Shown: positions 1 through 27,136 of the stretch, one piece after another
Layout: each line of letters opens with the position of its first letter
How positions within the stretch are numbered: the stretch's first letter is position 1
From: Candidatus Poseidoniaceae archaeon
GTDB lineage: Archaea > Thermoplasmatota > Poseidoniia > Poseidoniales > Poseidoniaceae
Direction of reading: 5' to 3'
Length of the DNA: 43,502 bases
Assembly (NCBI GenBank): GCA_938030705.1
Contig: CALHIR010000029.1
Location: 1 to 43,502 of the forward strand
Position numbers and translations under genes: made by a program
The notes under the pieces: model-generated
The model's input: only the letters and a program-made list of their open reading frames with translations
Databases searched by the model: none
Told to the model about the DNA's origin: nothing

Positions 1-2
1 CC

Positions 3-353
3 GGTTTCATGGGCAAACTCATGCCCGACCAGAAGAGCGCCGTTCGAAACTACCTCATCGCCACCTTCCTGCTGGGTTCGATGTTCATCGTGCTCAAGCT
101 CATTGAGTGGAGCCACCTCGTCGCTGAGGGCTTCACCATCGGCACCCAAGCCGGTTCCATCTTTTACATCTCGACGGGCGCCCACGGTTTGCACGTCTTC
201 ATCGGCTTGCTCGTGATGCTTTACCTGATTTTCAAGGCCGACACCGTCGGCTACGACGAGAAGAACGGGCAGGGTATCGAATACTTCGGGCTGTACTGGC
301 ACTTTGTTGACTTGGCTTGGGTGGTCATCTTCCCAGCCTTCTATCTGTATTGA
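3..353 (+). CDS. Cytochrome c oxidase (heme-copper oxidase) subunit III, 5' truncated
   Basis: This is the C-terminal part of subunit III of an aa3-type terminal oxidase, an integral membrane protein of the oxygen-reducing complex. The reading frame is open to the window edge (Gly-Phe precede the first Met), so the true start lies upstream. Visible are transmembrane helices near residues 17-36, 48-73 and 93-113 of the visible part. They hold the family-typical segments STGAHGLHVFIG and YWHFVDLAWVVIF, with the His/Glu pattern of the last helices of COX3. It lies 9 bases upstream of a subunit IV gene and in one transcription unit with an SCO chaperone, the expected partners. Confidence is high for the family. 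The exact oxidase class cannot be told without subunits I and II. Confidence 0.93.
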   Translation, partial: GFMGKLMPDQKSAVRNYLIATFLLGSMFIVLKLIEWSHLVAEGFTIGTQAGSIFYISTGAHGLHVFIGLLVMLYLIFKADTVGYDEKNGQGIEYFGLYWHFVDLAWVVIFPAFYLY

Positions 354-362
354 GGTGAGATT

Positions 363-758
363 ATGGGAGAACACGAAACATCTGGAATCTTGGAATCGAT
401 TGTTGAAAAACTGCCCGGTGGCTACGACATTTACTTTTGGAACTTCGTCGTCCTGATGTTCTTCACGTTGTTCGAAGTCGCCGCCGTTTTCTTTGAGAAA
501 ATACCCGGAACGGACATTGAAATTACCCTCTACGCCGTTTGGGCTATTCTGATCGGCGTTGGTGTCATCAAGGGCTACGGCATTGCAGCCTACTTCATGC
601 ACTTGAAAGGCGACCCACGTATCTACACCCGAACGGCCCTCTTCCCCGTCCTGTTTGTTTTGTTGATGCTCTGGGGCATTGGCCTGTCCAACCCCGGCTC
701 CGTTCAGGCCCTCCCAGAGTGGTGCACACCAAACTGGGACTTTGCCAGCCAACGCTGA
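363..758 (+). CDS. Prokaryotic cytochrome c oxidase subunit IV
   Basis: A 131-residue protein with three transmembrane helices, near residues 25-44, 54-80 and 90-108. That matches the length and layout of the prokaryotic COX4 family, the small accessory subunit of terminal oxidases. The charged loop with FMHLKGDPR between helices 2 and 3 is typical: in this family a helix-ending 'FMHL' is followed by a short polar loop. The gene starts with ATG directly after subunit III, preceded by GAGGTGAGATT, a good Shine-Dalgarno sequence. Its role is probably in assembly or stability of the oxidase rather than catalysis. The subunit III/IV/SCO order supports the assignment. Confidence 0.88.
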   Translation: MGEHETSGILESIVEKLPGGYDIYFWNFVVLMFFTLFEVAAVFFEKIPGTDIEITLYAVWAILIGVGVIKGYGIAAYFMHLKGDPRIYTRTALFPVLFVLLMLWGIGLSNPGSVQALPEWCTPNWDFASQR

Positions 759-769
759 GGCGGACCGTC

Positions 770-2293
770 ATGCGCTTGGGCCAAAAAGCGGCACTCACGG
801 TGTTTCTCTCTCTTTTGTTGCTCGCCCCCGCTTCGGCTTATATCGGGAAACAACTGGCCCGTGCCCCTGTGGACTCCTTTACACTGACCGACCAAGCCGG
901 CGAGGATTTCTCCTTTGGAACCGATACTGAAGGCGTGGTCATCGTTTCCTTCATTTTCACCCGATGCCCCGATGTTTGTCCTGTACTGACCCAAAGCCTG
1001 GCCGCCGTGGAAGCGGCGTTGACCGAAGACGAACGCGCTGATGTGACCTTTGTTTCCATCAGCGTGGACCCGGAGTACGATACCCCAGCAGCCCTGACAG
1101 AATACAGCGAGCGCATGGGCGTTTCATGGCCTCATCTAACGGGAACAACCGAAGAGATGCAACCGGTCTGGGATATGTTCGGCGTCGTCGTTCAACAAAA
1201 CGTCATCGATATGCACGTGATGGATTACCAACCAGGCGAAGCCTCCGTGACCGTGGTGGACACCTCGAACAACAGTACGCAGCACATGTTCGCTTGGTCG
1301 GGTTGGTCCGTAACCCAAACCATGGCGTCAACAGCAGGATGGACTGTGAACAGTTCGATCAGTGAATACGGTCGAATGCTCCACGGCATCAACGGTATGG
1401 ACTCACCTTCCGATTGGTCGTGGTGGTGGGAACTCAACCTTTGGAACGCCACCAACGGTACGTGGGAAGCCTCTGATGTCGGTATGGACGACGTGGATGG
1501 AATGGAAAACCAACATTTGGCTTGGATGCCGTCCAACGGCAATCGCAGCCTGCTCCCCTCACCCAACGAAACTCACGTGTCGAGTGTGAGCGTGCAGTGG
1601 CCAAACGGCACACATGACCAAATCGGTCAGGATGCCTTCACCGCCTACCACATCACACAGGGAGCCCTCAACGGGGCTGAGACCAACGCCACCATCGAAA
1701 ACACGGCCTACGGACATTACCTCTCCAGCCTCGCTGATGAAGACGCCCCCGATGATTACACGTGGTGGTGGAACCTCTACGGCTGGAATGAAACAGGGGG
1801 GCAATGGGAGTCCTCCAATGTCGGAATGGATGACTTCCTCGAACCCCTCCATCTCGCATGGGCACCGTCGTACACCAACATCTCAACGATACCCGCCCCA
1901 ACCAGCACCGCACAAGATGAAACGCTCTGCAACGGCCACGGTTGGGAGATGGGCAGCGGAGAATCCAAGCATTGCATGTGCGATAGTGGCTACACCTGGG
2001 CAGAGGGCGACCCGTTGTCCTGTGTCCCCGAAACCACGGAAGAGTACAACGTGGGTCATTCAACCATCACCTACATCCTCGCTCCAGATTTGACACCAAC
2101 CGTGGCATGGACCGGTGATTCTTGGCGCGTGGAAGATTTCACGGCCGATGTTCAAGAGTTGCTTGAAAAAGAACAACTGGGGGGATATGAGGCGGATTTG
2201 GTCCCTTCCCCATCACTCCTCATGACCACCACCGCCTTGCTTGCAGCCTTCGCTTACGTCGGTGCTCGCCGAACCAAATCGGGCAACGATTAG
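770..2293 (+). CDS. SCO1/SenC-family copper chaperone with a large internal insertion and C-terminal membrane anchor
   Basis: SCO proteins deliver copper to the CuA site of cytochrome oxidase and have a thioredoxin fold. The start at 770 is chosen because it gives a signal peptide or anchor (residues 7-23). The open frame extends upstream only inside the subunit IV gene. The copper-binding CPDVC motif is at residues 66-70, followed by FVSISVDPEYDTP, typical of SCO. The third ligand, the His of GHSTITYILAPD, is at about residue 430 rather than the usual 70-80 residues after the CxxxC. Residues 155-425 are an insertion holding two tandem repeats, each with a WWW-x-L-x-x-WN core and a VGMDD...HLAW.PS end, then an EGF-like Cys cluster (CNGHG...CMC...C). 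A C-terminal helix (about 480-497) with a basic tail follows. The frame is intact, so this is an architecture, not a frameshift. Confidence 0.88.
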   Translation: MRLGQKAALTVFLSLLLLAPASAYIGKQLARAPVDSFTLTDQAGEDFSFGTDTEGVVIVSFIFTRCPDVCPVLTQSLAAVEAALTEDERADVTFVSISVDPEYDTPAALTEYSERMGVSWPHLTGTTEEMQPVWDMFGVVVQQNVIDMHVMDYQPGEASVTVVDTSNNSTQHMFAWSGWSVTQTMASTAGWTVNSSISEYGRMLHGINGMDSPSDWSWWWELNLWNATNGTWEASDVGMDDVDGMENQHLAWMPSNGNRSLLPSPNETHVSSVSVQWPNGTHDQIGQDAFTAYHITQGALNGAETNATIENTAYGHYLSSLADEDAPDDYTWWWNLYGWNETGGQWESSNVGMDDFLEPLHLAWAPSYTNISTIPAPTSTAQDETLCNGHGWEMGSGESKHCMCDSGYTWAEGDPLSCVPETTEEYNVGHSTITYILAPDLTPTVAWTGDSWRVEDFTADVQELLEKEQLGGYEADLVPSPSLLMTTTALLAAFAYVGARRTKSGND

Positions 2294-2335: not shown

Positions 2336-2421
2336 GCAGTCGTCGCATAGCCTGGTATTGCGCCGGATTTGAAATCCGGTGTCCCCGTGACTCGGGAGTT
2401 CAAATCTCTCCGACTGCGCCA
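2336..2421 (+). tRNA. tRNA-Ser(UGA), with encoded CCA
   Basis: The acceptor stem is GCAGTCG paired with CGACTGC, followed by discriminator G and an encoded CCA. The anticodon stem CCGGA/TCCGG encloses the 7-base loop TTTGAAA with anticodon TGA. The T arm has GGGAG/CTCTC around TTCAAAT. The long variable arm with a GTC/GAC stem marks a class II tRNA, which fits serine. No intron is seen. It stands alone between the SCO gene and a lipoprotein gene, and is followed by a short CCCTTTTCC stretch that may end transcription. Confidence 0.93.
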
Positions 2422-13569: not shown

Positions 13570-16500
13570 TCACAAAAAGTCGGACAGCGAGAGTTGTTTT
13601 GCACGGTCGTTATTGAACAGGGAATCTGCGCTGGAGGCCAACCAGTCGGCGTTTTGCCGCGTGTACAAATCCACGCCATAGTGGTCCATGACGAAGCGCA
13701 TGACCTCGATGTATTTCCGAACGGCCCCCTCGGAGACGGTCAGGGCAAGGTTGCCGTTGCACAACCCACCTTCGGCTTTGGCCACGCCCATCCTTGAAAG
13801 CCCTCGACCGGTTTCCTTCTTGGGTTGAATGCAACTTCCCGAAAGTGGCATTCGACGATAGGAATGTGCGCACTTGAGGCAACGAACCTTCTGGCGGCCG
13901 TAAGCGTTCAAATTGCCTCGTAAGTCCGGCAAAAAGTGCGACCGAACCACGCTGGAAGCTACTTGTCGAACATTCACGCCACGGAGGCGATGTCCAAGCG
14001 CCAGTTGACCGTTCATTTTGTCGATCATCGTTTCCAGCGTTTTGTACGCCGAGAGAGCGGGGCCTCGGTCGAGGGCGTAGCAATCGTGCGTAAACCCATA
14101 ACCACGTACAGCAGCAACGCTTCCGAGGCGTCGTTCTACGAAATCCATCCGGTGCTGAATGTCCTTTGGATGAGGTTGTTGCAGCGTCGCCTCATAGAAA
14201 TCTCGCTCGTAAAACCAAGCGGCGTCGACATTGAGGGCTTCCTTGTCAACTTCGGTCGGGTTGAGTCGCGTGGTCAAGACCAACGGAGCGTCCATTTGAC
14301 CTCCGCGATTGGCGGGCAAAATATCACGACTGAAGTTCAACAGACCGTCCATTAGAAGCATGATGGCGTCTTCATCGCCGTCACAATTTCGCCGTTTGGC
14401 CGCATGGAAGAGTGGATGAGCGTACCCCCCTGAGCAATCAGCCCACCCGATGATCCGAGAGAGAACTCCCCCACTGGTGTGGGGTGCGAGGGCGCAGATG
14501 AGGTGGCCGATGAGGTCGTCGGGTTTGTCGGCGTTGTAATACGGTTCCATCTTGTAAAATCGTACGAGCAACTCGTCGATGTATTTCGCTGTGCGAAGCA
14601 GGAAATCGGCCGCTCCTTTGGCGACGATGAAATCCTGAGGGAACAGTTCCAGCGTTTGCTCGTCGTCGTTCAACGGCCGACCGCGGTAATCGTGCGTGTA
14701 GCCCAAACCGTGGAGCGTCTTCCAAGGCACGCCGATTTCTCTGGGCCGGAAATGGGTGATGGGAACGTCACTCATGTCGTAACGCACCGTCCCGTCTCGG
14801 AAGACAGGGAGTTCGTGGCGGGCCCGAAGAATTCCTTTTTCGATGGCCTCCGGCGTTTGGTCGCGGCTGTTGAGTTTCTTGGTGCACTTCACCTGGGCAG
14901 GGAGGCGGTCAATACCCAAACGAATACGTGCGTCTTCAACCATATCGTCCATCCGAACGGACTGCACTTCCCCTCGGCGATACGCCGTCGATTTTGTTTC
15001 CTTTGCTTGTGTTCGCCCGCCGCATGTCTCTCCAGCCTTCGTCTCGCCGTGTGCATCCAGTGCTCGGTGATGGCAACGAAGGTAGGGTGACTCCCGCTCG
15101 CAGACGCTGCATGTTCGGCGCCCCAATTGGACCCGAATCGTTCGCTTGTCAATGGCGTGATTCAGCAATCGCTGATTGCCCCCGTTCAATTCGATGGGAA
15201 ACAAGGAGTGCGTCATTGGATTCATGATGCGAGGGGCGGCCTTTTCGGGACGGCCCATACGGCAGCCCACGCGAACCGGTGCACTGTGTTCCCAGCGCAA
15301 GTCGGACAGTTGCCGCACAATGACCATGATGCCCTCGATGGCGTGTTCGTCTTCCAGGCGCTGGGCTGCGAGGTAGGCAGCCGGTTCGCTTGGACCTTCA
15401 TCGGGAACCGAAGCCGCTGCGTCCCGACCAACCCGGTCGGTCTCGGCGATACCAAGGCCACGCTGTCTCGCCCCTGTTTCAGCCGCAATACGAATTGTTG
15501 CGCGCTCTTTTTCCAGCTCACCTTTGCGGGCTCGCTCCTCGTCGAGGACCAATTTCGCTTTGCGCAAAGAGGCGAGGCGATCGCTGGCGACCTTCGAAGC
15601 GTTCTTCTGTCGGAGCGGAGCCTTCCTCTCGCTGGAATAACCGAAGGCCTCGAGGAAGGATTCCCATCCTGCGGAGACCACGATGTCTTCACCATCGTGA
15701 TGATGAGGGAGACCCAACAGCATCATCGCGCCCTTGGCCAGACCGTGTTGTTGCAAAGCCCATCCTTCGGGCAAGGTTGCGGTCATGACCGGCTGCTCCA
15801 TCGAAAAGGAAGGGCCAGGGAAAGAAGACGATTCAACATCAGGGAGTGTTTCGGGCTGCAGTTCATCCATCTTTTTGGGCGACCACGCTTTGGCGCCACC
15901 GGGAAGACGAAGTTGCCGTTCGCTGGTCAACGGCCGGGCTCCTTTGGGTGCATCGGCTTCACCTGTTGTTGGTTCGATGATGGCGCTGTCAAGCAAGTTG
16001 AGAACGGCGGGGAGCCATTCGATGGGGAGGTCCTTGAGCCATGGGTTATGAGGTGGAGGAAGGGACGTGGCAAAACGTCGTGAGCATGCCACGGCTTGCG
16101 ACCAATTCAAAGCTAATTTTCGTAATTGTTCATGCCATTCACAGCGGACCCAAAACTGCGCATTGGGGTCCTGGCTTTCCTCCGGGGGAAGACCGGGTGT
16201 CGCCTCCGGCCAGTCTTCGCGAGCAAAACCAAAGGTATCGAGGAAGAAGGCCACGTCCTCCTCGGTGGCCAAACTGTCGACCATATCACTGGCCCACCAG
16301 TCCATCGTGTACCCTGCGGGCACCAAACGCTTGTTGTTCTCCATGAATTCCCCGTAGCCGATCACCAATTCTCCGTTGTCCCAAACCTGTTTGACTCGGT
16401 GGCGGAGCGTGGCGTACGCTGCGGGGTCATCAACGCGCAGGAATCGCCCGTCCTCCAAGACCACCCAAGGACCCTCGGATTCGTCGCAAGGCGTGATGGC

Positions 16501-17667
16501 GCACGCTTTTCCGGGACGCTCAATTTTCATTTGCGTTCCAATGGTGATGAAATCATCCAAGGCTAACATGGAAGCGGTGTTGGTGGAGGCTGCGGCAAGG
16601 CCTGAAGGGCGGGCTCGGCCATAGCGAAGTCTGAAACCCCCGGGTTGCAACGGGCCGCCAAACACTGGCCTGCCCGCAATAATGTCGTTCATGAATTTCG
16701 TAATCGGGGCGATTTGTTGGCTCTTAAAAGCCGCTTTATCCGACGTTTCCGACTCCTTTCCACGGCTGGCGAACTTGGTGATGAATTCCCATCCAGGGAG
16801 GTTAAGTCGTTCGGTGTGTTTCTGGATTTTAGGGGCTTTCAAACACATGCCTTCGCCGATGACGAGGAGGACACCCCCTCGGATACGTGCTTCGTCAATG
16901 TTGCGTACATTTCCGTACCCCGCACACTCGATGCGTTCGGTTGACTCTCCGTTCACCATCACCGGGCATGCCCGGACAATCTCATCAATTTCTTCGGGAG
17001 AGGGGCGGTATTGGAGGTTGCCGCGATACAATCCAAACTCTTCCTTGACGCGCTCAACTTCGGGGTCAGTGGGTTGGTAGTGGCCGATGTTCAACTCACG
17101 ACGAATCATATCGGCAATGAGGACTGCCAAGGCTTGGGCTGTACCGCCTGCGGCTCGAATTGGACCTGCAAAATGAACAGAAACAAATTGAGAACCGTCG
17201 ATGTTGTTGAGCAAGCGCACCTCGCTGATGCCTTCCAACGGCGCCACAAGCACCGCTTCGGTCAAGACAGCAAGACCGACTCGAAGACCGACATCAATCG
17301 ACTTCTCAAGGTCGTAGCCTTGTTCACGGAAGCCTCGTGCGACGGATTGTGCGATGATGATCGACGTCGTTTCACGATCGTGCTCGTCCAACAAAGCACG
17401 GATATCGTCAGCGACTTCGTATCCGTCCAGATGTTCAATCAGAAGTTTTTCTGTTCGCCCTGCCAAATCGGAGGCACGGGGAATTTCGACCCGGTCTTTG
17501 TGGTCGAAGCCGAGTTGCCGGGCTTGTTCTGCGACACGATAGGCGTCGTCAGCGCGCTCATCGAGCCATTGATGGTAAGCGACCATCTCCTGCTCCAAAC
17601 GCTCCAAATCAAGACCAAGAAGAGGGTTGCTTTTCCCCACATCTGCGGCTTGCTTGGGCTCGGACAT
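13570..17667 (-). CDS. polC: DNA polymerase D (PolD) large catalytic subunit DP2
   Basis: DP2 is the catalytic subunit of the archaea-specific replicative polymerase PolD. The family is certain: the N-terminal block FVSVHFAGPIRAAGGTAQAL and the active site near RRNCDGDEDAIMLLMDGLLN with its Asp-Gly-Asp metal-binding residues. Zinc-binding clusters include CSVCERESPYLRCHH and CLKCAHSYRRMPLSGSC. Length is about 1365 residues, longer than the usual 1100-1270. Part of the excess is a charged stretch with Lys/Arg/Glu-rich helices around residues 700-800. No intein interrupts the NCDGDED site where some archaea carry one. The last residues, KQLSLSDFL, look like a PCNA-interacting motif. ATG 17667 with GGGTGA upstream is preferred over GTG 17673. 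Confidence 0.97.
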   Translation of the reverse strand: MSEPKQAADVGKSNPLLGLDLERLEQEMVAYHQWLDERADDAYRVAEQARQLGFDHKDRVEIPRASDLAGRTEKLLIEHLDGYEVADDIRALLDEHDRETTSIIIAQSVARGFREQGYDLEKSIDVGLRVGLAVLTEAVLVAPLEGISEVRLLNNIDGSQFVSVHFAGPIRAAGGTAQALAVLIADMIRRELNIGHYQPTDPEVERVKEEFGLYRGNLQYRPSPEEIDEIVRACPVMVNGESTERIECAGYGNVRNIDEARIRGGVLLVIGEGMCLKAPKIQKHTERLNLPGWEFITKFASRGKESETSDKAAFKSQQIAPITKFMNDIIAGRPVFGGPLQPGGFRLRYGRARPSGLAAASTNTASMLALDDFITIGTQMKIERPGKACAITPCDESEGPWVVLEDGRFLRVDDPAAYATLRHRVKQVWDNGELVIGYGEFMENNKRLVPAGYTMDWWASDMVDSLATEEDVAFFLDTFGFAREDWPEATPGLPPEESQDPNAQFWVRCEWHEQLRKLALNWSQAVACSRRFATSLPPPHNPWLKDLPIEWLPAVLNLLDSAIIEPTTGEADAPKGARPLTSERQLRLPGGAKAWSPKKMDELQPETLPDVESSSFPGPSFSMEQPVMTATLPEGWALQQHGLAKGAMMLLGLPHHHDGEDIVVSAGWESFLEAFGYSSERKAPLRQKNASKVASDRLASLRKAKLVLDEERARKGELEKERATIRIAAETGARQRGLGIAETDRVGRDAAASVPDEGPSEPAAYLAAQRLEDEHAIEGIMVIVRQLSDLRWEHSAPVRVGCRMGRPEKAAPRIMNPMTHSLFPIELNGGNQRLLNHAIDKRTIRVQLGRRTCSVCERESPYLRCHHRALDAHGETKAGETCGGRTQAKETKSTAYRRGEVQSVRMDDMVEDARIRLGIDRLPAQVKCTKKLNSRDQTPEAIEKGILRARHELPVFRDGTVRYDMSDVPITHFRPREIGVPWKTLHGLGYTHDYRGRPLNDDEQTLELFPQDFIVAKGAADFLLRTAKYIDELLVRFYKMEPYYNADKPDDLIGHLICALAPHTSGGVLSRIIGWADCSGGYAHPLFHAAKRRNCDGDEDAIMLLMDGLLNFSRDILPANRGGQMDAPLVLTTRLNPTEVDKEALNVDAAWFYERDFYEATLQQPHPKDIQHRMDFVERRLGSVAAVRGYGFTHDCYALDRGPALSAYKTLETMIDKMNGQLALGHRLRGVNVRQVASSVVRSHFLPDLRGNLNAYGRQKVRCLKCAHSYRRMPLSGSCIQPKKETGRGLSRMGVAKAEGGLCNGNLALTVSEGAVRKYIEVMRFVMDHYGVDLYTRQNADWLASSADSLFNNDRAKQLSLSDFL

Positions 17668-17695
17668 GTTCACTCACCCGTTCTTCACCACGACC

Positions 17696-24371: not shown

Positions 24372-24460
24372 GGCCCCTTACCTTTGGCGACACTCAATGA
24401 AGGCTCCCCCGCTAAACGCCTACACGACGGGTTCTTATGCAAGTGGGGCATGGTGTTTTC

Positions 24461-27136
24461 ATGCGTTTCAAGGCGTTTCTCACTGGTTTGGCCGCCTGCA
24501 TGCTCCTTTTGTTTCCATTCTCCGCAGTTGAGTGGCAACCGCAATCCAGCCTCGAAGATTTCCCACCCGTTCACCTCAATTCGGAGGTGAACGAAAGCGG
24601 TTGGCTGGCCAGTGCTGGCGGTTCAAGTTACGAACGCATCCGAGGCATGGTTCCCCTTTCCAATGGAAGCATGATCGTTGGTGGTATGTTTGAGCAGAAC
24701 ATTGATTTTGATGGCGACGTCATTGGCTTTACGAGCAATGACTCCTCTTTTGGCATTGATTTCTTTCTCGCGTGGCTGGATGAAAACGGCACCTGGACCA
24801 ACACCATGTCCGGAAGCAGCACCGGACTGGACGGTATTGATGCCATGGGTCGGCTCAGTGATGGGACCGTACTGGTAGCCGGTACCTTTTGTGGCATGAC
24901 CAAAGGCGACCCGTGCAACATGACATTGGGAGGATTGGAGCCGTTGAACAAAAGCGCCGACGACCATGAAAACGCAGTATTTTTGGCAGCGATGAACACG
25001 TTTGGTGAATGGATATGGGGCACTTCGTTATCCAACCCGTTCCAGATTTCCATCATTGACCTGATGGTACTTTCAAACGACCAGATTCACCTTGCAGTTC
25101 TCCATCGGGATTCGCTCGCCGCGGGTGATGAATTGGCCCCCGGAAGCATTTCAGAAGATTCCATCGCCATCCTTGTCCTCAATGAAAACGGCGAACATTT
25201 GCGCATGAACACCGTCTTCTCAAGTGAAAACTTGGAGGCGACCGGTTCGCTTTGTCAAGATGGTTTTGGACAAACTTACCTCGCCACCACCTTCGTGGAT
25301 TGGGTCAGTTTTGGTGACCACGCCTTGACCACTGCGGGCGGCTCCAACATCGCGATTGGGCAGTACAACTCGGGAGGTTGGTTGTGGGCGTCGGGTGCTG
25401 GAGGCCCCAGTGATGCATCCGTAGCCGATTGCGCCGGCCGATCAGAAGGCGGCGTGGCCATCGTCGGAGATTTCCTGCAAAACATGTCCTTCGGCAACAT
25501 CGAGGTGGCTCCCTCCGTTTGGATTGATTTCTACGAAGCCCACATTTCATCCAACGGCACGTGGTTGCACGCCACTGGATTTGGTGGTGTCGGCGCAGAC
25601 CATGCCGTCGGCCTTCATTTGACCGAACAAGGCGATTCCATCGTGGTCGGGAAATCCACCGGTTCCTTGACTTTAGGCGAGTTCGTCTTGGACGATATTG
25701 ACGGCATCAACAATGGCAACCACCACGACGTCTTCCTTGGACAGCGACAAGCCAACGGGGATTGGGACTGGGCTATTTCCGCCGGAGGCCAGGGCGATGA
25801 CCTCCCTGACCTTCTCAGCATGAGCGCCTTCGGTTCTCCGATCGTGTCGTTCGTCTCCAACGGCGACGGGATGTTTGGTACCCATGACTTCGTCCAGCGT
25901 CAGCAATACGACATGGGGTTGTGGTTGTACGAAACCGATTTGGATCTTGACGGGGTTCTCGACGGCGTGGATAATTGTCCCAAACTGGCCAACAGCGACC
26001 AAGCCAACCTGGATTACGACGCGTTCGGCGATGTCTGCGATGACGACATCGACGGAGATAGCGTGTTCAATGGGGATGACGAATGTCCGGTTGGCGACAT
26101 GGGGTGGGCTGCCAACAGCGCCTCCGACCACGACGGTGATGGTTGCAGGGATTTGACCGAAGACTTGGACGACGATGAAGACGGCGTATTCGATGAATTT
26201 GATCTCTGTCCGAAAGGACCTGTTGGGTGGGTATCCACCGAAGAGAACGACATTGAGGGGGACGGTTGTTCGGACGAAGACAACGATAACGACGGTTTTG
26301 TTGACCAAGCAGACAACTGCCCAACCATGGCCAACCCCACGCAAGCCGACCTCGATAACGACGGCGTTGGTGATGCTTGCGACGTGGACAAAGACGGCGA
26401 CGGCATCTCCATTCCCGACGATAACTGCCCGAACGACATCGATTCATGGATTTCATTCAGTTGGAACGATTACGACAGCGATGGCTGCTTGGACGAAGAA
26501 AGCGATGATGATGATGACGATGATGCAGTGGTCGATGTGAACGACGCATGCCCTCTGGGTGCGAAAAACTGGGGCGATGATGCTGCGAACGTGGACCACG
26601 ACAGCGATGGATGTCACGACGAATTGGAAGACGACGATGATGACCAAGACGGCATCAACGACTCCCTTGACCGATGCCCAAGAGGACTCATCGGTGCAGC
26701 ACAGGCCGGACAGGACTACGACGGCGACGGATGCATCGATGCTGTTGAAGACGACGATGACGACCAGGACGGTGTGCTTGACCCGCTCGATCGATGTGCA
26801 AACACGGACCCTTCAGAACAAGTGTCCTCCGACGGTTGCAGTCAGTACCAACTGGACGACGATAGAGACGGCGTCTTCAACGCTTATGACTTCTGTTTGG
26901 ATTCCCCACTCAACGCCGTGGTCGACGAACGTGGTTGTGGAACTGAAGCCTTGGCCCCATCGGGTGAAACGGACAGCGGAGGCATCGGCTTGGCAGGCAT
27001 GGTCTTCATGGCGACAGGAGCCATTGTTCTCTACGCCATCTACCTGAGCAATAAGCGACCGGGGCCTCCACTCCCAAAAACTCCGGTTGGATTTGAAACG
27101 CCACCTCCCCGTCCAGCTATGGATGAAGAGGAATGA
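24461..27136 (+). CDS. Secreted, membrane-anchored protein with beta-propeller-like N half and thrombospondin type 3 repeats
   Basis: The 891-residue protein starts with a clear signal peptide (MRFKAFLTGLAACMLLLF). The upstream in-frame ATG at 24437 would bury it, and a TATA-like TTCTTATG sits 25 bases before 24461. Residues 45-490 contain repeated blocks of the type 'G-x-x-x-L-x-DG-x-x-V-x-G-x-F' (for example MVPLSNGSMIVGGMF, MGRLSDGTVLVAGTF, AGRSEGGVAIVGDF), suggesting a beta-propeller. Residues 493-827 hold thrombospondin type 3-like calcium-binding repeats (D-x-D-x-DG...DNCP), with longer Trp-Gly/Cys-containing spacers and acidic runs. A transmembrane helix at about 842-863 and a Pro-rich cytoplasmic tail anchor it. 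Its role is probably adhesion, envelope structure or polymer binding, by analogy only. Confidence 0.85.
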   Translation: MRFKAFLTGLAACMLLLFPFSAVEWQPQSSLEDFPPVHLNSEVNESGWLASAGGSSYERIRGMVPLSNGSMIVGGMFEQNIDFDGDVIGFTSNDSSFGIDFFLAWLDENGTWTNTMSGSSTGLDGIDAMGRLSDGTVLVAGTFCGMTKGDPCNMTLGGLEPLNKSADDHENAVFLAAMNTFGEWIWGTSLSNPFQISIIDLMVLSNDQIHLAVLHRDSLAAGDELAPGSISEDSIAILVLNENGEHLRMNTVFSSENLEATGSLCQDGFGQTYLATTFVDWVSFGDHALTTAGGSNIAIGQYNSGGWLWASGAGGPSDASVADCAGRSEGGVAIVGDFLQNMSFGNIEVAPSVWIDFYEAHISSNGTWLHATGFGGVGADHAVGLHLTEQGDSIVVGKSTGSLTLGEFVLDDIDGINNGNHHDVFLGQRQANGDWDWAISAGGQGDDLPDLLSMSAFGSPIVSFVSNGDGMFGTHDFVQRQQYDMGLWLYETDLDLDGVLDGVDNCPKLANSDQANLDYDAFGDVCDDDIDGDSVFNGDDECPVGDMGWAANSASDHDGDGCRDLTEDLDDDEDGVFDEFDLCPKGPVGWVSTEENDIEGDGCSDEDNDNDGFVDQADNCPTMANPTQADLDNDGVGDACDVDKDGDGISIPDDNCPNDIDSWISFSWNDYDSDGCLDEESDDDDDDDAVVDVNDACPLGAKNWGDDAANVDHDSDGCHDELEDDDDDQDGINDSLDRCPRGLIGAAQAGQDYDGDGCIDAVEDDDDDQDGVLDPLDRCANTDPSEQVSSDGCSQYQLDDDRDGVFNAYDFCLDSPLNAVVDERGCGTEALAPSGETDSGGIGLAGMVFMATGAIVLYAIYLSNKRPGPPLPKTPVGFETPPPRPAMDEEE
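25936..26950 (+). repeat. Thrombospondin type 3 repeat-coding array (surface protein 1)
   Basis: Coding repeats rich in GAC/GAT that translate to about eight D-x-D-x-DG units with paired Cys and long spacers, including a stretch of seven consecutive Asp codons near 26507-26527. Confidence 0.7.

Follow-up and report, generated by a model that had tools for sequence, protein, structure and literature searches.

A SCO-family protein of a Poseidoniaceae archaeon with its domain split by predicted DUF4430-like units and a Cys-Met-His module

How a SCO copper chaperone could keep its metal site when the parts of that site lie hundreds of residues apart in the chain is the question raised by an open reading frame of a Candidatus Poseidoniaceae archaeon (GCA_938030705.1, contig CALHIR010000029.1). 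The window, that is, the whole stretch of DNA analyzed, comprises positions 1-43,502 of the forward strand of this contig. An earlier note, made from the letters alone, had described an intact frame encoding a SCO protein with a long insertion, and positions 770-2293 (+) are indeed open from ATG to TAG, encoding 507 amino acids (Table 1). Like SCO1/SenC proteins (human SCO1, B. subtilis YpmQ, ScoI), the protein has a thioredoxin-like domain, a CxxxC motif with a distal histidine, and linkage to cox genes. Unlike them, it carries about 270 residues in the Sco loop, before the ligand histidine, and is anchored at the C terminus, the usual SCO anchor being N-terminal. The anchors of this and other SCO proteins (window 2204-2290; L015, L016, L022) resemble archaeosortase PGF-CTERM signals, with a weak TIGR04126 match for that of L015 (E 0.019, 14.6 bits against a cut-off of 24.5). 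A search of the whole 507-aa protein against NCBIfam returned one weak peroxiredoxin match and nothing more.

Table 1. Features of the SCO gene and its immediate neighbours (window coordinates).
Feature	Position	Strand	Basis
cox subunit III, C-terminal part	1..353	+	NCBIfam CyoC and other subunit III models, below cut-offs
cox subunit IV-like gene	363..758	+	caa3_sub_IV, E 5.5e-6, below cut-off
SCO copper chaperone with inserted domains	770..2293	+	507 aa, Pfam
Putative signal peptide, residues 1-22	770..835	+	hydrophobic from residue 7 (hydropathy)
SCO domain, N-terminal part, residues 30-150	857..1219	+	Pfam; SCO structures by sequence and fold
CxxxC copper/redox motif, C66-C70	965..979	+	unchanged throughout the 19 A1 rows
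H149, additional invariant His bordering the insert on its N-terminal side	1214..1216	+	A1
DUF4430/transcobalamin-beta-like domain 1, residues 157-262	1238..1555	+	model, fold match, profile
DUF4430/transcobalamin-beta-like domain 2, residues 268-376	1571..1897	+	model, fold match, profile
Cys-Met-His module (HCMC), C387-C418, EGF-like spacing	1928..2023	+	conservation
SCO domain, C-terminal part (hairpin and last helix), residues 422-468	2033..2173	+	splice tests, profiles
H430, predicted as third copper ligand in the SCO motif	2057..2059	+	aligned to the human SCO1 His in 'vdhtiimyl'
C-terminal membrane anchor and basic tail	2204..2290	+	hydropathy; PGF-CTERM-like in relatives
tRNA-Ser (tga)	2336..2421	+	directly downstream of the SCO gene

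Regarding the neighbourhood, the contig starts within the cox subunit III gene, which is longer in the related locus L004, and the subunit III models stay below their cut-offs because the gene is partial here. The subunit IV-like gene ends 11 bases before the SCO gene; its L004 counterpart matches COX4_pro above the cut-off, and the gene order in L004 is cox2-cox1-cox3-cox4-SCO. It was also observed that Cox subunit I of that locus (L004:859-3162) bears an N-terminal extension of ~230 aa, with a GCTCHGG motif, ahead of its COX1 domain. A second SCO gene, without domain insert, is found in the window's own genome (L002).

The third-ligand histidine had been placed about 360 residues from the CxxxC motif, and 360 residues is what was measured between C66/C70 and H430; the 70-80 residues given as the normal spacing proved too low, as 14 uninserted relatives have 82-92 (rows L026 and L101 left out as artefacts). 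Pfam SCO1-SenC matches residues 36-147 (93.2 bits, cut-off 22.8) and ends at profile position 113 of 134, and among solved structures those closest in sequence belong to SCO proteins. In a splice test, residues 26-150 and 422-475 were joined, and the uninterrupted native segment 26-200 (the continuous form) served for comparison. With human SCO1 (2gqk) as target, the spliced halves scored 52.9 bits versus 42.2 for the continuous form, whose alignment stops at construct residue 114, whereas in the joined form 'eynvghstityilapd' pairs with 'edyivdhtiimyligpd', ligand histidine included. Joining also raised the scores for 6n5u (42.1 to 53.8 bits), 4bpy (46.1 to 52.2) and 2k6v (46.1 to 52.1); for 4hde, the best structure of the continuous form, the change was from 50.7 to 51.6 bits, with the histidine reached by neither alignment. 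The Pfam score itself went from 93.2 to 101.8 bits, covering profile positions 3-131 of 134.

Profile comparisons against 19 relatives without domain insert (the canonical SCO set) gave the same picture. Residues 422-470 matched the C terminus of this set at 98.0% (E 2.5e-13), and the joined halves scored 350.6 versus 285.7 for the N part alone, the match of the continuous form ending at most 3 columns from the end of the N part; units 1 and 2 had no match to this set (0.1% and 0.0%). The histidine at the H430 position is conserved in 54/54 two-unit forms, the window protein counted. The SCO domain is not one continuous stretch, being broken by about 270 residues; both of its parts are clearly homologous to SCO, and the protein was therefore classed as a variant SCO. 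As far as sequence comparison goes, the results support a SCO copper chaperone with a split domain continuing on both sides of the insert, as first noted, in which removal of the insert restores one SCO domain through H430.

In the full-length model, pTM is 0.48 and residues 379-431, in the module region, fall below pLDDT 50. The best SCO matches of this model in Foldseek extend over ~110-125 columns at 2-3 A, presumably covering just the N part; longer matches have rmsd values of 7-15 A. That C66, C70 and H430 would meet in one fold is suggested by the splice alignments together with the uninserted relatives.

We then focused on the content of the insert. The two tandem repeats quoted in the earlier note are both present (WWWELNLWN..GTWE..VGMDD..HLAWMPS and WWWNLYGWN..GQWE..VGMDD..HLAWAPS), the units being 41% identical over 91 aa and related at 99.8% in profile-profile comparison. 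Modeled alone with AlphaFold, they reach pLDDT 91.3 and pTM 0.86. The 19 best PDB matches of this model are 3u7z, transcobalamin, intrinsic factor and haptocorrin, with probabilities of 0.93-1.00, E values from 9.6e-4 to 0.056 (below 0.001 in the first only), a best target TM-score of 0.55, and rmsd values of 7-16 A, because the query holds two domains. The record of 3u7z, which we take to be a DUF4430 protein, is titled putative metal-binding protein. In addition, against a profile of 19 DUF4430 proteins of the class (11 of 30 loci were left out for failing the pattern), unit 1 scored 84.5% and unit 2 64.8%, with controls below 1%. Like the DUF4430/transcobalamin C-terminal beta domain (3u7z, 5no0), the units have the predicted fold and, by eye, similarly placed W, N and G positions; unlike it, they are in tandem, inside a chaperone, and below the Pfam cut-off. 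The hesitant DUF4430 guess made at the outset is in agreement with both fold and profile, and the models bear out that the two parts are tandem DUF4430/transcobalamin-beta (beta-grasp) domains.

Pfam DUF4430 matched 4/19 members of A1, the alignment defined below, at E up to 1 (best 0.0016), the window protein and its separate units staying below the gathering score with no match. When each unit was searched separately against all of Pfam, unit 1 matched no family, and the sole match of unit 2 was UnbV_ASPIC (E 0.038). At E up to 1, DUF4430 was also not matched in the one-unit forms L087, L092 and L029; their 'one unit' label therefore comes from the A3 profile, in which some of these rows are themselves included, and from the motif by eye. 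The DUF4430 search of the window's own genome gave no match at the SCO locus. Elsewhere in that genome, a 551-aa protein, probably exported, has a weak DUF4430 match at its end (L023:43-1698), and, among the matches listed, DUF4430 recurs in family f1 in frames of ~550-600 aa. Moreover, N-glycosylation sequons in the units number 517 over 54 proteins, against a shuffle mean of 181 (sd 22, 50 shuffles), which corresponds to 4.19 per 100 residues, compared with 1.13 in the N-terminal SCO part, 0.05 in the module stretch and 0 in the C-terminal SCO part. A STT3 match was found in the same genome (L178, contig C39), inside a 3204-aa open frame.

The description of the insert as two repeats held, and left out a third part, the module of 32 residues that lies just before H430, with four cysteines and an invariant methionine and histidine. 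To place its conservation, we used A1, an alignment of 19 rows in which the window protein stands with 18 relatives aligned end to end, out of 20 related loci in other assemblies that match over nearly full length; L019 and L021 were left out for undetermined bases. At residues 386-420, 17 of 35 positions (49%) are invariant, as opposed to 0-23% elsewhere (29/128 in the N-terminal and 10/48 in the C-terminal SCO part, 7/107 and 10/113 in the units), and the module stretch is the most conserved segment of the protein. The HCMC module occurs in 54/54 two-unit and 20/20 one-unit forms (17 caught by the pattern, 3 on sight), and 10-14 residues separate its end from the ligand histidine in two-unit forms. 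H401 and M403 are kept in 54/54 two-unit modules and in 19/19 of the one-unit modules caught by the pattern, which missed 1/20 in this count; H390 is less constant (42/54 and 11/19).

The class-wide variation of the same site had likewise been overlooked. A SCO match is present in 307/339 genomes of the class. We read 133 SCO-like frames, drawn from several searches and not at random; 125 have both halves (L134 and L141 come from outside the class), and 8 lack a usable C-terminal part or Cys column. Both cysteines and the histidine are kept in 123/125, across seven loop types, the exceptions being L026, truncated where its locus ends, and L134, which belongs to another class and has Met in place of the first Cys; L101, among the 123, lacks the C-terminal part, so its histidine is an artefact. 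The distance from the second Cys to the His is 81-92 in short loops (16 rows, including L026 and L101, both wrongly typed as canonical), 99-247 with a linker (15), 128-134 in TSP3-like loops (13), 238-276 with one unit and module (20), 356-376 with two units and module (54), 291 and 324 with a unit and no module (2), and 350-368 with thioredoxin and module (5). The loop contents include His/acid linkers. The loop labels are rough: that of TSP3 is weak (in L093, Pfam TSP_3 matches at E 0.0078, below cut-off), and four 'longer linker' rows (L175, L169, L170, L095) are TSP3-like on sight, a mistyping that inflates the count of loop changes on the tree; L084-L086 also carry a unit. Separately, the window holds a 899-aa protein with a thrombospondin type 3 repeat (24437-27136).

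The insertion recurs in other Poseidoniales SCO genes, the comparison that the earlier note had proposed. A match to the module and C-terminal SCO part below E 1e-30 was counted by hand in 29/39 genomes at least 90% complete (f1 19/22, f2 9/14, f3 1/3). The A3 profile matches 288/339 genomes; since the weak matches among these may come from free DUF4430 proteins, the figure was not used to count split SCO genes. In a tree of 121 rows (4 of the 125 not entered), built from SCO columns only by a quick method that gave long-branch warnings, the two-unit form is a single clade (support 84) with one-unit forms around it, which is consistent with an origin of the two-unit form by duplication of a single unit. 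The TSP3-like and short-loop genes fall on the other side of the tree, except L134, whose short loop sits among inserted forms on a long branch. Within genus g25, the 52-aa linker of L139 corresponds in L099 to 170 aa comprising a unit and the module; on the two flanks of the loop the proteins are identical at 140/166 and 35/41 positions. The sister genus g23 has a thioredoxin-like domain inside the SCO loop; in L097 this domain shares 39% identity over 143 aa with an adjoining free thioredoxin gene, which is followed by a VKOR gene. Overall, the Sco loop site is, judged from these alignments, an insertion hotspot in the class, where the insert varies by lineage and the putative copper-binding residues stay constant.

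Two arrangements of genes may be recorded here. The SCO with inserted thioredoxin, free thioredoxin and VKOR of L097 (L097:1695-4270) could form a disulfide-exchange set beside cox genes. In the family f2 genomes listed here, two SCO genes are direct neighbours: the loop of one is short and TSP3-like, that of the other holds a unit and HCMC module (L090-L095, L160, L162, L167, L169-L171, L175).

The architecture is well supported, and the analysis supports a divided SCO domain, a fold for the insert, the conservation described, the hotspot and the order of the genes. The protein most probably serves as a functional chaperone of CuA assembly, with a redox or copper partner supplied in cis by its insert. 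In the review PMC6696091, the Sco loop is described as carrying an extra histidine and as a beta-hairpin when copper is bound, PCuAC as a Cu(I) chaperone working with SCO on CuA, and TlpA as reducing ScoI and subunit II; in Thermus, pCuAC inserts copper and Sco reduces the cysteines. We propose that a CuA-assembly protein of the SCO family, encoded after cox genes, exported and held in the membrane by its C terminus, would have had this loop, bearer of the third copper ligand and source of the SCO metal site, opened just before the histidine to take in two glycosylation-prone DUF4430 domains as well as a small Cys-Met-His module. The two parts of the SCO domain would close into one thioredoxin-like fold, with C66, C70 and H430 forming the usual copper site. 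The beta domains may be an outward arm that docks a partner, either subunit II or the surface; given the sequon excess in the units, the near absence of sequons in the module and the STT3 match, we read this arm as glycosylated. The module, beside H430, would be the working part of the insert, acting on the SCO site as a thiol-disulfide or copper relay in cis. Taken as a whole, with the units as arm and the module as relay, this is the best explanation we have, and we consider it fairly probable. Such a protein bears on copper delivery to CuA in organisms without PCuAC, and a metal-ligand loop that takes whole folded domains with its ligands kept is a striking case of active-site domain insertion. 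Among the papers listed by our literature searches, none dealt with copper delivery without PCuAC in Poseidoniales or with a SCO insertion in these archaea. Moreover, the natural series of loops (none, linker, TSP3-like, one unit, two units, thioredoxin) makes loop function directly testable.

The module may be just two structural disulfides. If it is an ordinary EGF-like knot stapling the base of the insert, the rest would be neutral or surface-adapting decoration. Its C-x-C-x-x-G-Y spacing fits such a knot, and so do weak EGF-type Pfam matches, all below cut-off (EGF_Teneurin E 0.34, 11.5 bits against 24.3), the poor conservation of the units (7-9% invariant), and the near relative L139, which manages without units. 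However, H401 and M403 are as invariant as the cysteines. Among the rows without module on the SCO-A side of the tree, 9/11 have at least four histidines in the loop (L051, L102, L024, L025, L139, L084-L086, L164), L166 having two and L134 none. The inserted thioredoxin also suggests a redox theme, and its five forms carry a related GCHCNPG module. We regard a purely structural module as possible, though on the doubtful side.

A broader reading would make the Sco loop an evolvable socket, in which Cu(I) donor and thioredoxin partners, separate in bacteria, have been repeatedly installed in cis, with HCMC as a second copper site replacing PCuAC; we hold it to be unlikely. As in PCuAC, whose His/Met ligands end in HxM according to PMC6696091, the module ends in H401-C-M403, a likeness that is only suggestive, and its fold is different. 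The PCuAC Pfam profile had no match in the window protein or its own genome, and none in 118 class genomes, with 3/14 control genomes positive; this absence proves little, since B. subtilis also lacks PCuAC, according to a table in PMC6696091. The g23 loop recalls Bradyrhizobium TlpA, in that it holds in cis a thioredoxin-like domain comparable to that ScoI-reducing thioredoxin (PMC6696091); unlike TlpA, a separate protein in the bacterium, it is part of the SCO chain, and the window protein has none.

Another possibility, that residues 30-190 already make up a whole SCO domain, H149 being its third ligand and the C-terminal SCO-like piece a duplicated remnant, seems very improbable to us. H149 does lie 79 residues after C70, near the canonical spacing, is invariant in A1, and HMM matches to the N part often extend through the first hairpin of unit 1. 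Nevertheless, by alignment H149 is off the SCO ligand position, and it was rejected as a candidate ligand: the continuous construct's alignment ends before any SCO ligand histidine, whereas the C-terminal piece matches the SCO C terminus. L024, without domain insert, has both a H149-like histidine and the histidine of YxVGHST. By a loose pattern, a H149-like histidine is found in 54/54 two-unit and 17/20 one-unit forms, but in 0/13 TSP3-like and 0/5 thioredoxin forms. Unit 2 has a hairpin and a helix corresponding to those of unit 1; a SCO C terminus hidden within unit 1 was also rejected, unit 1 matching the canonical set at 0.1%. Finally, an assembly chimera or frame error fusing unrelated genes, for which nothing speaks beyond the single contig, is excluded for practical purposes, as the earlier note had expected, because the 20 loci of other assemblies carry the same architecture, the frame is intact and the L004 copy occupies the same site after cox4.

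Elsewhere in the window, positions 13570-17673 encode DP2, the large subunit of DNA polymerase D; its central domain is matched as two stretches.
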